From a virus, in the IMG/VR virus record IMGVR_UViG_3300017768_000084, positions 1-23,714 of that record: DNA of 23,714 nucleotides, one strand, 5' to 3'. The translations under genes were made by a program, and so were the position numbers. The notes under the pieces were generated by a model. It was not told the origin of the DNA, did not search any database, and was given only the letters and a program-made list of their open reading frames with translations. This document shows positions 1 through 4,171 of the stretch, piece by piece. Each line of letters opens with the position of its first letter. Position 1 is the stretch's first letter.

Positions 1-636
1 AAAGAATTTGAGCCTGGAACGTTTAAGTATCTAAATAATGGGGAAAGTATTACTGTCCCTGACATCGATTCGCCGGACCAGCAGTTCGACATGTTTGTAA
101 AAAACAAGGTGCGACGTTTTGCGTCAGGCTTTGGCTGTTCGTATGAGACGCTGTCTCGCGACTTTAGCGACACAAACTACAGCAGCTCAAGGCTTAGCTT
201 GCTTGAGGATCGTGAGCATTGGCGTGTTGTACAGAAGTATCTGATCGATAATTTTCACATGCGGGTCTATCGCGAGTGGCTGAACTTAGCTGCGTTGAGC
301 GGTGAGTTGAATTTGCCTGATTTTGAGACAAGAAGCGATCGATATGACAATCCAAGGTGGATGCCGCGTGGCTGGAGCTGGGTTGATCCATTGAAAGAGG
401 TAAAGGCCTACCGCGAGGCGGAACAAGCTGGGTACATGACGAAGGCGCAGATTATTGCGTATTCAGGCGGTGACTATGACGACAACGTGTCTGAGCTTGC
501 GCGTGAACAGCAGCTTGCAGCTGATGCTGGCATCAAGCTAGATAAGGACTTAGATCTGACGGATGAGGATATGCAGCTGTCCTTGCTTGAATCAGAGGAG
601 CCAACACCCACTCGCCGTAAGCGGAGTAAGAAGTAA
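1..636 (+). CDS. Portal protein, lambda gpB-like (5' truncated)
   Basis: The reading frame is open from the first base, so the true start lies upstream and 211 residues of the C-terminal part are visible. The portal is the dodecameric ring at one capsid vertex through which DNA is packaged and ejected. Visible family hallmarks are an EPGTFKYLNNGE segment, then a short FASGFGCSYETLSRDFSDTN stretch followed by YSSSRLSLLE, and later RGWSWVDPLKEVKAYREAEQAGYMT, all in the order seen in lambda gpB-type portals. The protein ends in a basic tail (TRRKRSKK). Its stop codon overlaps the start of the next gene by one base (TAATG), indicating translational coupling with the protease-capsid gene. An ATG at 91 would lie inside the conserved region, so it is not the real start. 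Family assignment is from remembered pattern and is strong. Confidence 0.93.
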   Translation, partial: KEFEPGTFKYLNNGESITVPDIDSPDQQFDMFVKNKVRRFASGFGCSYETLSRDFSDTNYSSSRLSLLEDREHWRVVQKYLIDNFHMRVYREWLNLAALSGELNLPDFETRSDRYDNPRWMPRGWSWVDPLKEVKAYREAEQAGYMTKAQIIAYSGGDYDDNVSELAREQQLAADAGIKLDKDLDLTDEDMQLSLLESEEPTPTRRKRSKK

Positions 637-3137
637 TGGCAAACGTAAACGGAGTCGAAATTGATCTGATGCCTAATGAAGGCATGAGAAAAGAGGCTCA
701 GCGTTACCGGGACTGGAAAGCTGATGGTGAGGGTGGCGGCACAGATGTCGCACGGACTCGTGCCAGCCAGATTCTGAGTGGCAATGAGCTGTCAGCAGAC
801 ACGGTGATTACGATGTCGGCGTGGTTTGCCCGGCATGAGGTAGATAAGCAGGGCAAGGGGTTTAGCCCTGGAGAGGAGGGTTATCCAAGTAATGGTCGCG
901 TGGCTTGGGCTGCATGGGGCGGAGATCCGGGCAAGTCTTGGTCTGATGCTCGGGCAAAACGAATTAAAGCTGCAGAGGATCGTTCCATGTCAATCGACCA
1001 TAATGACGAAGAAGTATTGAGTTCAGACATGGAGCCTGAAGTTCAACGTGCTGCGCCTGATGCGCTGAAAGTTGGAGATTATGTCTCTTGGAACAGCTCT
1101 GGAGGCAGAGCTAGGGGGCTGATCGAGAAGGTTGTTCGTGATGGCACGATCGACGTACCTGATTCGTCATTTACCATCAATGGCACGCCTGATGACCCTG
1201 CAGCACTGATCTGCGTTTATCGCGATGGTGAAAAGACTGACACCCGTGTTGGGCATCGGTTTAGCACGTTGACCAAGATCGAGCCGATCCGTTCGCTTGT
1301 TGGCGAGCGCATGAAGAGGACTGAGGCGACTGAGATCAGGACGATCGATGACCGCACCTTTGAGTTTCCGTTCAGCTCTGAGTATCCGGTGAGTCGGTAT
1401 TTCGGTACAGAGGTGCTGAGTCACGATGATGACGCTCCTAACTTCATGCGTCTCAACGATGGTGCGCCTTTCTTGTTCAACCACAATCCAGACAAGGTGC
1501 TGGGGGTTGTCGAGCGTGCATGGCACGACAAGAAGAAGAAGCGTGGCTACGCAAAAATCCGCTTTTCGCGGTCTGAATTCGCTAAGCAGTACTTAGATGA
1601 CGTTAAAGATGGCATTTTGCGCGGTATCTCGTTTGGTTATTCAATCGACGAAGTAGAGGAAAGAGGTGAAGGAGTGGTTGCCACTAAGTGGAGCCCGCAT
1701 GAATTGTCATTAGTGTCCATTCCTGCTGACCCTACAATTGGGATTGGACGATCACTTTTATCAAAGGAGCCATCGATGCCTGAAGCCTCACAAGCTGAAG
1801 ACACTACTATTGATAACGAAGCTCCTGTTGAAAAGCAGGAAGTTCGTTCAGCGGTTCTGACCGCATCTACAAACGCTCCTCTGATGGAAGATCAAACTCC
1901 AAACCTGGAGGTGATTCGGTCGGAAGCCAGCGCCGATGGCGCAAAGGCTGAAAGGGACCGCATCGCCAAAATCACTGCATACGGTGACAAGTACCGTATG
2001 CCAGACCTGGCACAAGAACTTGTTCGGGGTGAAAAAAGCCTTGACGAGGCTCGTGCTGCTTTCCTAGAAAAAATCAGCTCTAACCAAGTGGAACAACCTA
2101 TTCGCTCCACCGATGTCACCGCCAACGATGTCGGCCTGTCCCAGAAAGAAGTCAAGCGCTTCAGCTTCGTGCGTGCGCTGAACTATCTGGCAAGTCCTGG
2201 CGATGCGACTGCACGTCGTGGAGCTGAATTTGAGATTGAGGTTGGCCTCGAAGCTGCTAAGCAGTATGAGCGCTCCTCAAACGGCATTGTTGTTCCCAAC
2301 GAAGTTCTTCGCCGTGACTTGACCGTTGGCGTTGCTGCTGATGGCGGCAACCTTGTTGACGATGTGCTGCTGGCTGGAAGCTTCATCGAGATTCTGCGTA
2401 ACAAGCTGGCGCTTGCTAACGCAGGGATGACAACGCTGACTGGCATCAACGGAAACATCTCAATTCCTCGCCAAAATTCGGCGGCCACGGCTTATTGGGT
2501 TGGCGAAAATTCTTCACCGACCGAAAGCCAGCAGGCTGTTGATCAGGTGAACCTTTCACCAAAAACTTGCGGTGCATTTGTTGACTACAGCCGTCGTCTT
2601 CTGCTGCAGTCGAGCATCGATGTTGAGTCGATGGTTCGTAATGACATCGCAGCCCAGATTGCCCTTGAGCTTGATCGCGTCGGCATCAATGGCTCTGGTT
2701 CTTCTAACCAGCCACAAGGCATCATCAACACCAGCGGAATCGGCAGCCAGTCTTTGACTGGATTCGGAACCTTTGCTGAGTACATCGGCATGGAAACTGA
2801 TGTTGCTGTTGCCAACGCTGATGCTGGCAACCTGCGTTACATCATTAACGCTTCTGCTCGTGGCGCTCTGAAGAGCACTGAGAAGGCTTCTAACACCGCT
2901 CAGTTTGTCTACGAGAATGACGAGATCAACGGTTATCCCGTGACGGTCTCGAATCAGTTGGGCAACAACGACGCCCTGTTTGGCGACTTCTCCATGTTGA
3001 TCATGGCGATGTGGTCCGGCCTGGATCTGACTGTTGATCCTTACGCTGGTGCAACCGCTGGCACCGTTCGCATCATCGCCCTGCAGGACGTTGATTTTGC
3101 GGTCAAGCAGCCTGGCGCGTTCTGCTTCGCAACCTGA
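636..3137 (+). CDS. Prohead protease-major capsid protein fusion, HK97 family
   Basis: This 833-residue polyprotein combines head maturation and shell functions. Residues about 17-110 form a small domain (RASQILSGNELSADT, FARHEVDKQGKGF) often seen in phage head proteins. Residues about 144-216 (VGDYVSWNSSGGRARG, NGTPDDPA) resemble the Hva1/DUF2945 Tudor-like fold. Residues about 228-372 are an HK97 prohead protease: candidate catalytic His283 in FNHNP and Ser332 in RGISFGYS, plus the ELSLVSIPADP motif. Residues 381-500 are a charged, partly helical region like the HK97 delta/scaffold domain. Residues about 500-833 are an HK97 gp5-type capsid protein (PRQNSAATAYWVGE, INGSGSSNQPQGI, DYSRRLLLQSS). 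In HK97 the protease and capsid are separate genes. Here no stop or frameshift separates them. The start overlaps the portal stop. An internal Shine-Dalgarno/ATG at 1763-1778 may also give free capsid protein. Domain calls are from memory of the families. Confidence 0.92.
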   Translation: MANVNGVEIDLMPNEGMRKEAQRYRDWKADGEGGGTDVARTRASQILSGNELSADTVITMSAWFARHEVDKQGKGFSPGEEGYPSNGRVAWAAWGGDPGKSWSDARAKRIKAAEDRSMSIDHNDEEVLSSDMEPEVQRAAPDALKVGDYVSWNSSGGRARGLIEKVVRDGTIDVPDSSFTINGTPDDPAALICVYRDGEKTDTRVGHRFSTLTKIEPIRSLVGERMKRTEATEIRTIDDRTFEFPFSSEYPVSRYFGTEVLSHDDDAPNFMRLNDGAPFLFNHNPDKVLGVVERAWHDKKKKRGYAKIRFSRSEFAKQYLDDVKDGILRGISFGYSIDEVEERGEGVVATKWSPHELSLVSIPADPTIGIGRSLLSKEPSMPEASQAEDTTIDNEAPVEKQEVRSAVLTASTNAPLMEDQTPNLEVIRSEASADGAKAERDRIAKITAYGDKYRMPDLAQELVRGEKSLDEARAAFLEKISSNQVEQPIRSTDVTANDVGLSQKEVKRFSFVRALNYLASPGDATARRGAEFEIEVGLEAAKQYERSSNGIVVPNEVLRRDLTVGVAADGGNLVDDVLLAGSFIEILRNKLALANAGMTTLTGINGNISIPRQNSAATAYWVGENSSPTESQQAVDQVNLSPKTCGAFVDYSRRLLLQSSIDVESMVRNDIAAQIALELDRVGINGSGSSNQPQGIINTSGIGSQSLTGFGTFAEYIGMETDVAVANADAGNLRYIINASARGALKSTEKASNTAQFVYENDEINGYPVTVSNQLGNNDALFGDFSMLIMAMWSGLDLTVDPYAGATAGTVRIIALQDVDFAVKQPGAFCFAT
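974..989 (+). promoter_or_regulatory. Possible internal ribosome binding site before Met118 of the protease-capsid fusion
   Basis: AGAGGA (974-979) stands 7 bases before an in-frame ATG at 987. Initiation here would remove the first N-terminal accessory domain and yield a 716-residue product. The ATG lies in a linker between domains, which fits. The Shine-Dalgarno match could still be chance in a purine-rich coding stretch, so this is weaker than the site at 1763. Confidence 0.3.
1763..1778 (+). promoter_or_regulatory. Internal ribosome binding site and ATG for stand-alone capsid protein
   Basis: AAAGGAG (1763-1769), then a 6-base spacer and an ATG at 1776, in frame with the fusion gene. The ATG encodes Met381, exactly between the protease domain and the delta/capsid region. 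Translation from it would give a 453-residue product, a size that fits an HK97-type capsid protein with its N-terminal delta domain. Lambda C/Nu3 is the known precedent for an in-frame internal start in a head protease gene. That this site is used is an inference. Confidence 0.65.
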
Positions 3138-3322
3138 TGAAGGTTGAGATCCTAAGGGCAGTGATGATTTCCGGTGAGCCTGCGAAAGCAGGCTCCATTT
3201 TGGAGATCGATGACAGTGATGCAATGACCCTGATTGGTCTTCGCAAAGCTGTTAAGTACAAAGAGGAAGAGGCCCCCTCTTGTCCCCCTAAAAAACCAAC
3301 TACTAAGAGGACCAAGCCATGA
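3137..3322 (+). CDS. Small conserved phage head-region protein
   Basis: A 61-residue protein that directly follows the capsid gene, sharing one base with its stop (TGATG). Its N-terminal half has the pattern 'GEPAKAGSILEIDDSDAMTL' followed by 'IGLRKAVKY', which resembles short phage proteins commonly found beside capsid genes, with a KAG-hydrophobic-acidic turn and an LIGxxKA helix. The C-terminus is a Lys/Pro/Thr-rich tail (PKKPTTKRTKP) that is probably disordered. No catalytic motif or membrane segment is visible. The gene overlaps the next start as ATGA. Its function is unknown; a minor head or connector-region role is suggested only by position. Confidence 0.75.
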   Translation: MKVEILRAVMISGEPAKAGSILEIDDSDAMTLIGLRKAVKYKEEEAPSCPPKKPTTKRTKP

Positions 3323-3696
3323 GCGTTGGAAACACCAGACGGACATTAACTGTCTTGTCTTTTGCTCCAAATGATGTTGTCACTGCAACTGGCAACAAGA
3401 CAGGCGTTGACCTTCTTGATTATGAGGGTGACATCACCTTGATCTTGGATGCTGAGGCTGGTGGTTCTGGCATCACCTACGCAGTCAAGGTCCAAGATTC
3501 TGCTGACAACAGCACTTTTGCGGATGTGACTGACGCTGCCTTTACTACTACGACGGCTAACACCGCGTTAGTAGAGACTCTTATCGTCAACAGCGATGAG
3601 ATTAAGCGCTATGCGCGTGTTGTTATCACGGTTGCTGGTGGCAGTGGTGCGGGCGCAGTTAGCGTCACTGGTTTAGGACGCAAGAAGTACAACTGA
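3319..3696 (+). CDS. Putative capsid decoration or minor head protein
   Basis: A 125-residue, beta-rich protein of low charge with Thr/Val/Gly-rich strands (VKVQDSADNSTFADVTD, RYARVVITVAGGSG) and a C-terminal GRKKYN. The pattern resembles small phage structural proteins encoded just after the major capsid gene, often decoration or head-stabilising proteins. A strong Shine-Dalgarno (AAGAGGA, 3305-3311) lies 7 bases before the ATG, inside the 3' end of the preceding gene, and the start overlaps that gene's stop as ATGA. It is the last gene before a strong intrinsic terminator, so it probably shares the high expression of the capsid gene. The structural role is inferred from composition and position, not from a recognised motif. 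Confidence 0.8.
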   Translation: MSVGNTRRTLTVLSFAPNDVVTATGNKTGVDLLDYEGDITLILDAEAGGSGITYAVKVQDSADNSTFADVTDAAFTTTTANTALVETLIVNSDEIKRYARVVITVAGGSGAGAVSVTGLGRKKYN

Positions 3697-3708
3697 TCAC
3701 TGATCTGT

Positions 3709-3733
3709 GCCCCCGGACATCCGGGGGCTTTTT
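3709..3733 (+). terminator. Intrinsic terminator after the capsid genes
   Basis: GCCCCCGG (3709-3716), a 4-base loop ACAT, CCGGGGGC (3721-3728), then TTTTT (3729-3733). The stem is a perfect 8-bp GC-only helix. It sits between the decoration-like gene and the head-tail joining gene, and its T-run ends only 3 bases before the next ATG. Confidence 0.88.
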
Positions 3734-3736
3734 ACT

Positions 3737-4027
3737 ATGGCAATTTCTTTTGAAGAAGACCTTGATGCTTTTTTCGACACGCCTGGCTTTACGGTGTCTG
3801 TGGCTTCTAGCGCCGCCAGCGGAGTTGGATACTTGGATTCTCCAAGTGAGATTATTGCAGACGGAGTAATATTGACTACTGATTATAGCGTGGTTGTCAA
3901 AACTTCAACTTTCTCCACAATAAAGAATGGAGATGCAATGAATGTTGATGGTATTGATTACACGGTAAGGGAGCCAATGCTGCTCGACGACGGTAAGCTG
4001 ATGCGCATAATGCTAATGAAGGACTAA
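3737..4027 (+). CDS. Head-tail joining protein, lambda gpFII-like
   Basis: A 96-residue protein starting MAISFEEDLDAFFDTPGF, a typical opening for phage head-tail joining (connector) proteins in which an acidic helix with a 'DAFF' core precedes a small beta barrel. Towards the C-terminus, IKNGDAMNVDGIDYTVREP matches the recurrent 'v.GD.l.vdG..Y.V.....D' pattern of that family. It would bind beneath the portal ring and form the interface to which the tail docks. I chose ATG 3737 because the upstream GTG at 3707 would place the terminator hairpin inside the coding region. The only purine-rich upstream block is the GGGGG of the terminator's right arm, so initiation may be sensitive to that hairpin. 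Assignment rests on pattern and gene order. Confidence 0.8.
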   Translation: MAISFEEDLDAFFDTPGFTVSVASSAASGVGYLDSPSEIIADGVILTTDYSVVVKTSTFSTIKNGDAMNVDGIDYTVREPMLLDDGKLMRIMLMKD

Positions 4028-4171
4028 GTGGACAAGCGTTCTTTCGACAACTGGCATCGTTTGAAAGAAAGTTTGGAGAGAGAGGGCAAGACAGACTCGT
4101 TCTACTACAAGCGTGCGTGTTACATCGTCCAGAATGGTCGTGATCCTGGATTGAAGATGCCAAGGCCATGA
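4028..4171 (+). CDS. Small hypothetical protein, 47 residues
   Basis: A short ORF with a GTG start immediately abutting the preceding stop (TAA then GTG). An AAGGA (4019-4023) lies 4 bases upstream, and the stop overlaps the next ATG as ATGA, so it fits the coupled architecture of the module exactly. The protein is charged and probably helical (FDNWHRLKESLEREGKTDSF, then YYKRACYIVQNGRDP). The 'GKTDSFYYKRA' stretch resembles tiny proteins found at this place in other marine phage tail modules. No domain or function is recognised. The abutting start and overlapping stop support it as a real gene. Confidence 0.68.
   Translation: MDKRSFDNWHRLKESLEREGKTDSFYYKRACYIVQNGRDPGLKMPRP

Follow-up and report, generated by a model that had tools for sequence, protein, structure and literature searches.

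The head protease gene C of bacteriophage lambda contains a second in-frame start, Nu3, from which the C-terminal part of the gene is produced alone and in excess. In lambda this nested product is a scaffold and the capsid protein gpE is encoded by a separate gene, whereas the nested product at the locus studied here would be a delta-capsid protein. The C-terminal part of the herpesvirus maturation-protease gene UL26 is likewise expressed separately and in excess, as UL26.5; however, UL26.5 is made from a separate transcript and its product is a scaffold, not the delta-capsid proposed here. Fusion of a protease to the capsid protein itself is already known. The tripartite capsid gene of Salmonella Gifsy-2 carries protease, scaffold and capsid in a single frame. 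The same holds for gp5 of Pseudomonas phage MD8 (PMC8508860), for Paracoccus prophages (PMC6536676) and for the Rhodobacter RcC cluster (PMC8601537). The MD8 and Paracoccus prophage fusions have ClpP-like proteases, whereas the protease studied here is of the S78 type, and the passages found on these three fusions mention no internal start.

Dinoroseobacter phage vB_DshS-R4C, whose virion contains 415 capsid copies (PMC10276861), belongs to the same family as the gene studied here; the word protease is absent from that structure paper. The R4C fusion comprises 629 amino acids, and the solved virion chain (PDB 8gta) corresponds exactly to residues 362-629. Because the virion form has lost both protease and delta, mature particles cannot distinguish a cleaved fusion from a cleaved free delta-capsid. 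The R4C gene differs from the present one in lacking the extra N-terminal domains and in having a much stronger internal Shine-Dalgarno (SD) sequence, GGAGG-N7-ATG at residue 189. The PHROG 617 head proteins of Jilinvirus and similar E. coli, Salmonella and Vibrio phages also combine an S78-type protease with a capsid part of the same family. These genes encode about 630-705 amino acids without the N-terminal and TUDOR-like domains and come from phages of proteobacterial hosts; a junction SD-ATG was present in most of those tested. No description of an internal capsid start in such fusions was found in the open-access literature, in agreement with the remark of an earlier note on this DNA that the use of the C/Nu3 principle for capsid supply in an HK97-type fusion was not known to be described.

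In the window (the whole stretch of viral DNA analysed, 23,714 nucleotides of an IMG/VR virus record), the open reading frame at 636-3137 on the + strand encodes an 833-residue protein in which protease and capsid follow one another uninterrupted. Its ATG at 636 overlaps the stop codon of the portal gene (TAA, 634-636). The protein begins with a PHROG 2859-like N-terminal domain that is helical in the AlphaFold model (residues 1-120; 636-995), which is followed by an Hva1_TUDOR-like domain that is beta-rich in the model (residues 147-192; 1074-1211; Pfam E 1.4e-7) and by the prohead protease domain (residues 241-360; 1356-1715). A disordered inter-domain linker (residues 368-429; 1737-1922; AlphaFold pLDDT <50) leads to delta/scaffold-like helices (residues 424-543 of the model; 1905-2264) and to the HK97-fold capsid domain (residues 570-832; 2343-3131). 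Pfam placed Peptidase_S78 at residues 277-366 and Phage_capsid (PF05065) at residues 570-832, with an E value of 3.4e-43 that assigns the C-terminal part to the HK97 fold; PDB 8gta matched residues 570-825 (E 6e-47). The PHROG 617 major head protein spanned residues 237-832 (E 1.4e-152) and hence both parts of the fusion. The predicted prohead protease is intact in its catalytic residues, H283, S332 and E356 being invariant among 30 aligned members. The reading of the earlier note that an HK97-type protease and its capsid are encoded in one gene without a stop between them was thus borne out by the Pfam and PHROG matches. Of the relatives in IMG/VR, all 332 in which coverage of both regions was scored have protease and capsid in one frame. 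The Hva1_TUDOR-like and PHROG 2859-like domains precede the protease in the window gene, and proteobacterial members are without both. In a deltaproteobacterial relative (L101), protease and capsid are separate adjacent genes (1351-2808 and 2893-4083).

Within the disordered linker, an SD-like AAAGGAG (1763-1769, + strand) is separated by 6 nt from an in-frame ATG (1776-1778, Met381), from which a 453-residue delta-capsid would be made. The coordinates, spacer and product length given for this site in the earlier note were confirmed, and an in-frame internal start with a ribosome-binding site, as in lambda C/Nu3, is therefore present in the sequence. The duplex energy with the 16S rRNA tail at ATG 1776 was -7.9 kcal/mol, the highest strength among the 38 internal ATG, GTG and TTG codons of the gene, and an SD of this strength was found at only 9 of the 419 ATGs in the window. 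When codons were shuffled synonymously, which kept the protein sequence and used the gene's own codons, a linker ATG site of equal strength arose in 13.5% of the shuffles (about one in seven; p=0.135). Since so many shuffles matched it, the SD-ATG at 1776 is by itself only mildly improbable and constitutes weak evidence. No exact copies of the window's junction were found in IMG/VR.

The earlier note had also proposed an alignment of homologues as a check on whether the SD and Met381 are conserved. All 48 genes of the window's own clade (at least 80% amino acid identity to the window gene) were fused. The ATG at codon 381 was kept in 39/48 and replaced in 9/48 (GCG twice, GCA, TCG, ACG, ATT, CTG twice and TTG), and GGAG or AGGA preceded codon 381 in 8/48 and was absent from 40/48, fewer than codon usage predicts. 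Parsimony on the clade tree required at least five state changes each for the ATG and for the motif. In synonymous shuffles, an SD at Met381 was expected in 6.2 of 14 genes and observed in 2, which is below chance, as at ordinary Met codons. Because the ATG was lost in nine genes and the SD was rarer than codon usage predicts, the SD-ATG at 1776 was not under detectable selection, and this exact site appears not to be conserved beyond the need of the protein in its own lineage. For position 1776, these 48 genes thus gave the outcome that the earlier note had named as a refutation, homologues that retain the fusion but not the internal SD/ATG, but the mechanism itself found support in other lineages, at the same protease/delta boundary.

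Scans of IMG/VR yielded several hundred relatives, with 270 unique genes that 90% identity clustering reduced to 89 representatives. Among the roseophages of the CRP-811 clade (44 non-redundant genes), a junction ATG and GG at -10/-9 were each found in 44/44. The linker of this clade is hypervariable and indel-rich, differing in length and sequence between phages. These linkers nevertheless end in a purine SD (AAGGAG, GAGGAA, ATGGAG or AAGGAA) followed by ATG-[TA]C-, while the residues encoded at the SD vary (K/E/M, E/V/D, T/A/N/K). With a mean of -8.1, the junction SD was the strongest among 22 conserved Met columns. It was observed in 44 genes against 25.9±3.1 expected from synonymous shuffles, although z-like values from such counts overstate independence because the counted sequences are related. 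The other conserved Met codons of the clade were depleted of SD sequences (47 versus 96.4±7.3 expected). A similar excess was found at the junction Met of 27 more distant members (21 versus 9.5±1.9 expected), namely R4C, VP882, RcRhea, Persinger, PPpW-3, PT1, ECO1230-10, Arya, KA2-1, Mica, FoX1, E. coli Jilinviruses, prophages and IMG/VR loci. No excess was seen at the remaining 403 internal ATGs of those 27 genes (58 versus 59.8). The peptides that begin at the junction Met of the distant members, MNEKILRDA, MTEKTLRDA, MEKILRDA, MLEKTLRDA and MNIKVLRDA, look like protein N-termini. An internal SD-ATG is thus conserved beyond the need of the protein in other lineages of the family, which strongly supports the mechanism there. 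A dismissal of the SD-ATG as chance, which the first homologue set had favoured, was overturned by this family-level excess. No strong junction SD-ATG was found in the Synechococcus phages S-CBS1, S-CBS3 and S-LBS1.

The CRP-811 protein (L082) has a second internal Met at residue 130, between the N-terminal domain and the protease. It was preceded by an SD in 34/35 genes of the clade (14.6 expected), and a third nested product may be made from it. In CRP-823 (L090), the N-terminal domain (480-1196) lies in another frame than the protease-capsid part (1156-3408), and L234 is arranged likewise; in CRP-823, annotated as two overlapping coding sequences, the gene is thus naturally divided close to the second internal start.

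Were the fusion the only product, ribosomes would read its two halves with equal frequency. Codon bias was higher in the capsid part than in the protease part in 85/89 representatives, and so was the share of C-ending NNY codons in 79/89. The rise in codon bias was also observed at variable residues and is therefore not accounted for by selection for accuracy at conserved positions. In the window's clade, the C-ending NNY fraction was 0.43 in the N-terminal part, 0.47-0.54 in the protease and 0.64-0.81 after codon 381, in 9/9 representatives; across clades it was 0.37-0.57, 0.40-0.61 and, after codon 417, 0.61-0.77. The maximum-likelihood codon step of the window's clade was located at codon 380, and that of the CRP clade at codon 451, against a start at 453. 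In the mixed supergroup the change point fell at codon 441, and codons 382-416 were not clearly capsid-like. For the window gene alone the step was significant and was best placed at codon 256, so a single-gene change point was rejected as a locator of codon 381. In each of four clades examined, synonymous variation was at or near its minimum around the junction. In the window's clade, the strongest synonymous constraint of the gene (observed/expected about 0.1-0.2) covered codons 382-421 (1779-1898), directly after Met381. These codon data are indirect and phylogenetically correlated; the higher bias of the capsid part, seen in all clades tested, would provide indirect support for a nested product made in excess.

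The explanation to which we incline, with somewhat better than even confidence, is that the gene of the protease-delta-capsid fusion has, close to the border of protease and delta, a second site of ribosome entry for protease-free delta-capsid. The full-length 833-residue fusion would be translated from 636, and the second entry would yield delta-capsid without protease. Fusion subunits would bring the protease into the procapsid, the rest of the shell being built from free delta-capsid subunits, and the protease would then cut away both itself and delta, so that the capsid domain, from about residue 570, remains. Few fusions and many free capsids, as in the earlier note, would be made in this way; we infer the use of the start, the ratio of the products and the operation of the device in this phage from sequence patterns. 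The family in general probably makes free delta-capsid by internal initiation. A wider version, for which the chances appear evenly balanced, is that the protease-capsid fusions of the family are nested cistrons with one internal in-frame start, or two in the CRP-811 clade (at residues 130 and 404 in the protein of CRP-811). The amounts made would increase from N-domain+protease+capsid through protease+capsid to the capsid-only product, in parallel with codon bias, and the protease:capsid ratio in the procapsid would be determined by ribosomes.

For the phage of the window, an internal start is plausible, either at 1776 or at 1884, the codon of the invariant Met417. Most weight is given to 1776, which is the most likely start in this lineage; 1884 carries less, and the absence of any internal start about one third. 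In the last case, whatever other lineages do, the SD-ATG would be a by-product of the Ser-Lys-Glu-Pro-Ser-Met codons of an acidic linker, with self-cleavage of the 833-residue fusion as the source of all capsid. The gain and loss of ATG381 and SD among close relatives, the SD frequency below synonymous expectation together with the shuffle result for the window gene, and the Synechococcus phages of the family without a strong junction SD-ATG are consistent with this. However, ATG381 is kept in most of the clade, and the clade shows both the rise in codon bias and the drop in synonymous variation at the junction. In addition, by a rough packing estimate with an approximate procapsid size, 415 copies of about 570 residues would nearly fill the interior of a T=7 procapsid.

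It is rather unlikely that the window's supergroup starts at Met417 (1884-1886, + strand) without an SD and that Met381 is incidental; a 417-residue product would possibly be made from this ATG. Met417 lies in an unstructured context, and is present in 48/48 genes of the window's clade; 39/39 supergroup representatives have a Met 6-7 codons ahead of the LEVIRS motif. By position, Met417 appears to correspond to the internal start of the CRP-811 clade, and the RNA structure minimum of the junction region falls at codon 415 (-5.3, the mean over the gene being -10.1). A few positions before the Met417 counterpart, the L003/L011 subclade has ATG in 21/52 and GTG in 31/52, with no other codon, in the context AAACAC[TA][AG]TGACTGA, a Met/Val exchange that preserves a start codon; this exclusive choice also favours a start in the region. 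On the other hand, Met417 lacks an SD and has a pyrimidine-rich upstream sequence, the codon change point of the window's clade favours 380, the L011 clade's own gene start has a strong SD, so that an SD-less internal start would be weaker, and the protein itself could require the Met. Met381 and Met417 are both located in the disordered linker, upstream of the first delta helix, so that a start at either one would give a complete delta-capsid.

It is improbable that the constraint on the nucleotides following Met381, among them the invariant GGAGGTGATC(C), reflects not initiation but a pause in translation during which the protease could fold ahead of capsid synthesis. The element concerned is GGAGGTGAT (1907-1915, + strand), a complement of the 16S rRNA 3' tail that is near-invariant in the supergroup and has no start codon at SD spacing; CTGGAGGTGATCCGGTCC occupied the same place in 37/39 supergroup representatives. 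The 11-nt complement of the 16S rRNA 3' end, GGAGGTGATCC, was found in 33/39 versus 2.6 expected from codon usage, about 50 codons past the end of the protease domain in the AlphaFold model, which speaks for a pause. However, the CRP and gammaproteobacterial lineages are without the string, the rise in codon bias would be left unexplained, and SD-induced ribosome pausing is disputed. A conserved RNA structure was rejected, since RNAalifold around 1907-1915 gave short stems in which two-sided covariation was not found. Highly improbable is the supply of extra capsid by a capsid-only mRNA, through an internal promoter or processing, instead of ribosome entry on the full mRNA. Such an mRNA would likewise yield a rise in codon bias and nucleotide-level constraint at the junction, but no sigma70-like promoter was found at 400-3800 in a consensus search, which does not cover phage-specific promoters, and the fixed-spacing SD-ATG of other clades would be unexplained unless both mechanisms operated.

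Fusion of a protease to every capsid subunit creates a problem of stoichiometry and space in procapsid assembly, which a conserved nested start, if true, would solve. Public annotations of these major head proteins would then miss the main capsid translation product, and the lambda C/Nu3 principle would reach from scaffold to capsid. The same arrangement is present in phages of laboratory E. coli. Downstream of the fused gene, a strong intrinsic terminator (8 G-C pairs and a T run) was noted at 3709-3728, after the gene at 3319-3696, and the true start of the open reading frame at 3707-4027 is probably later, near 3737.
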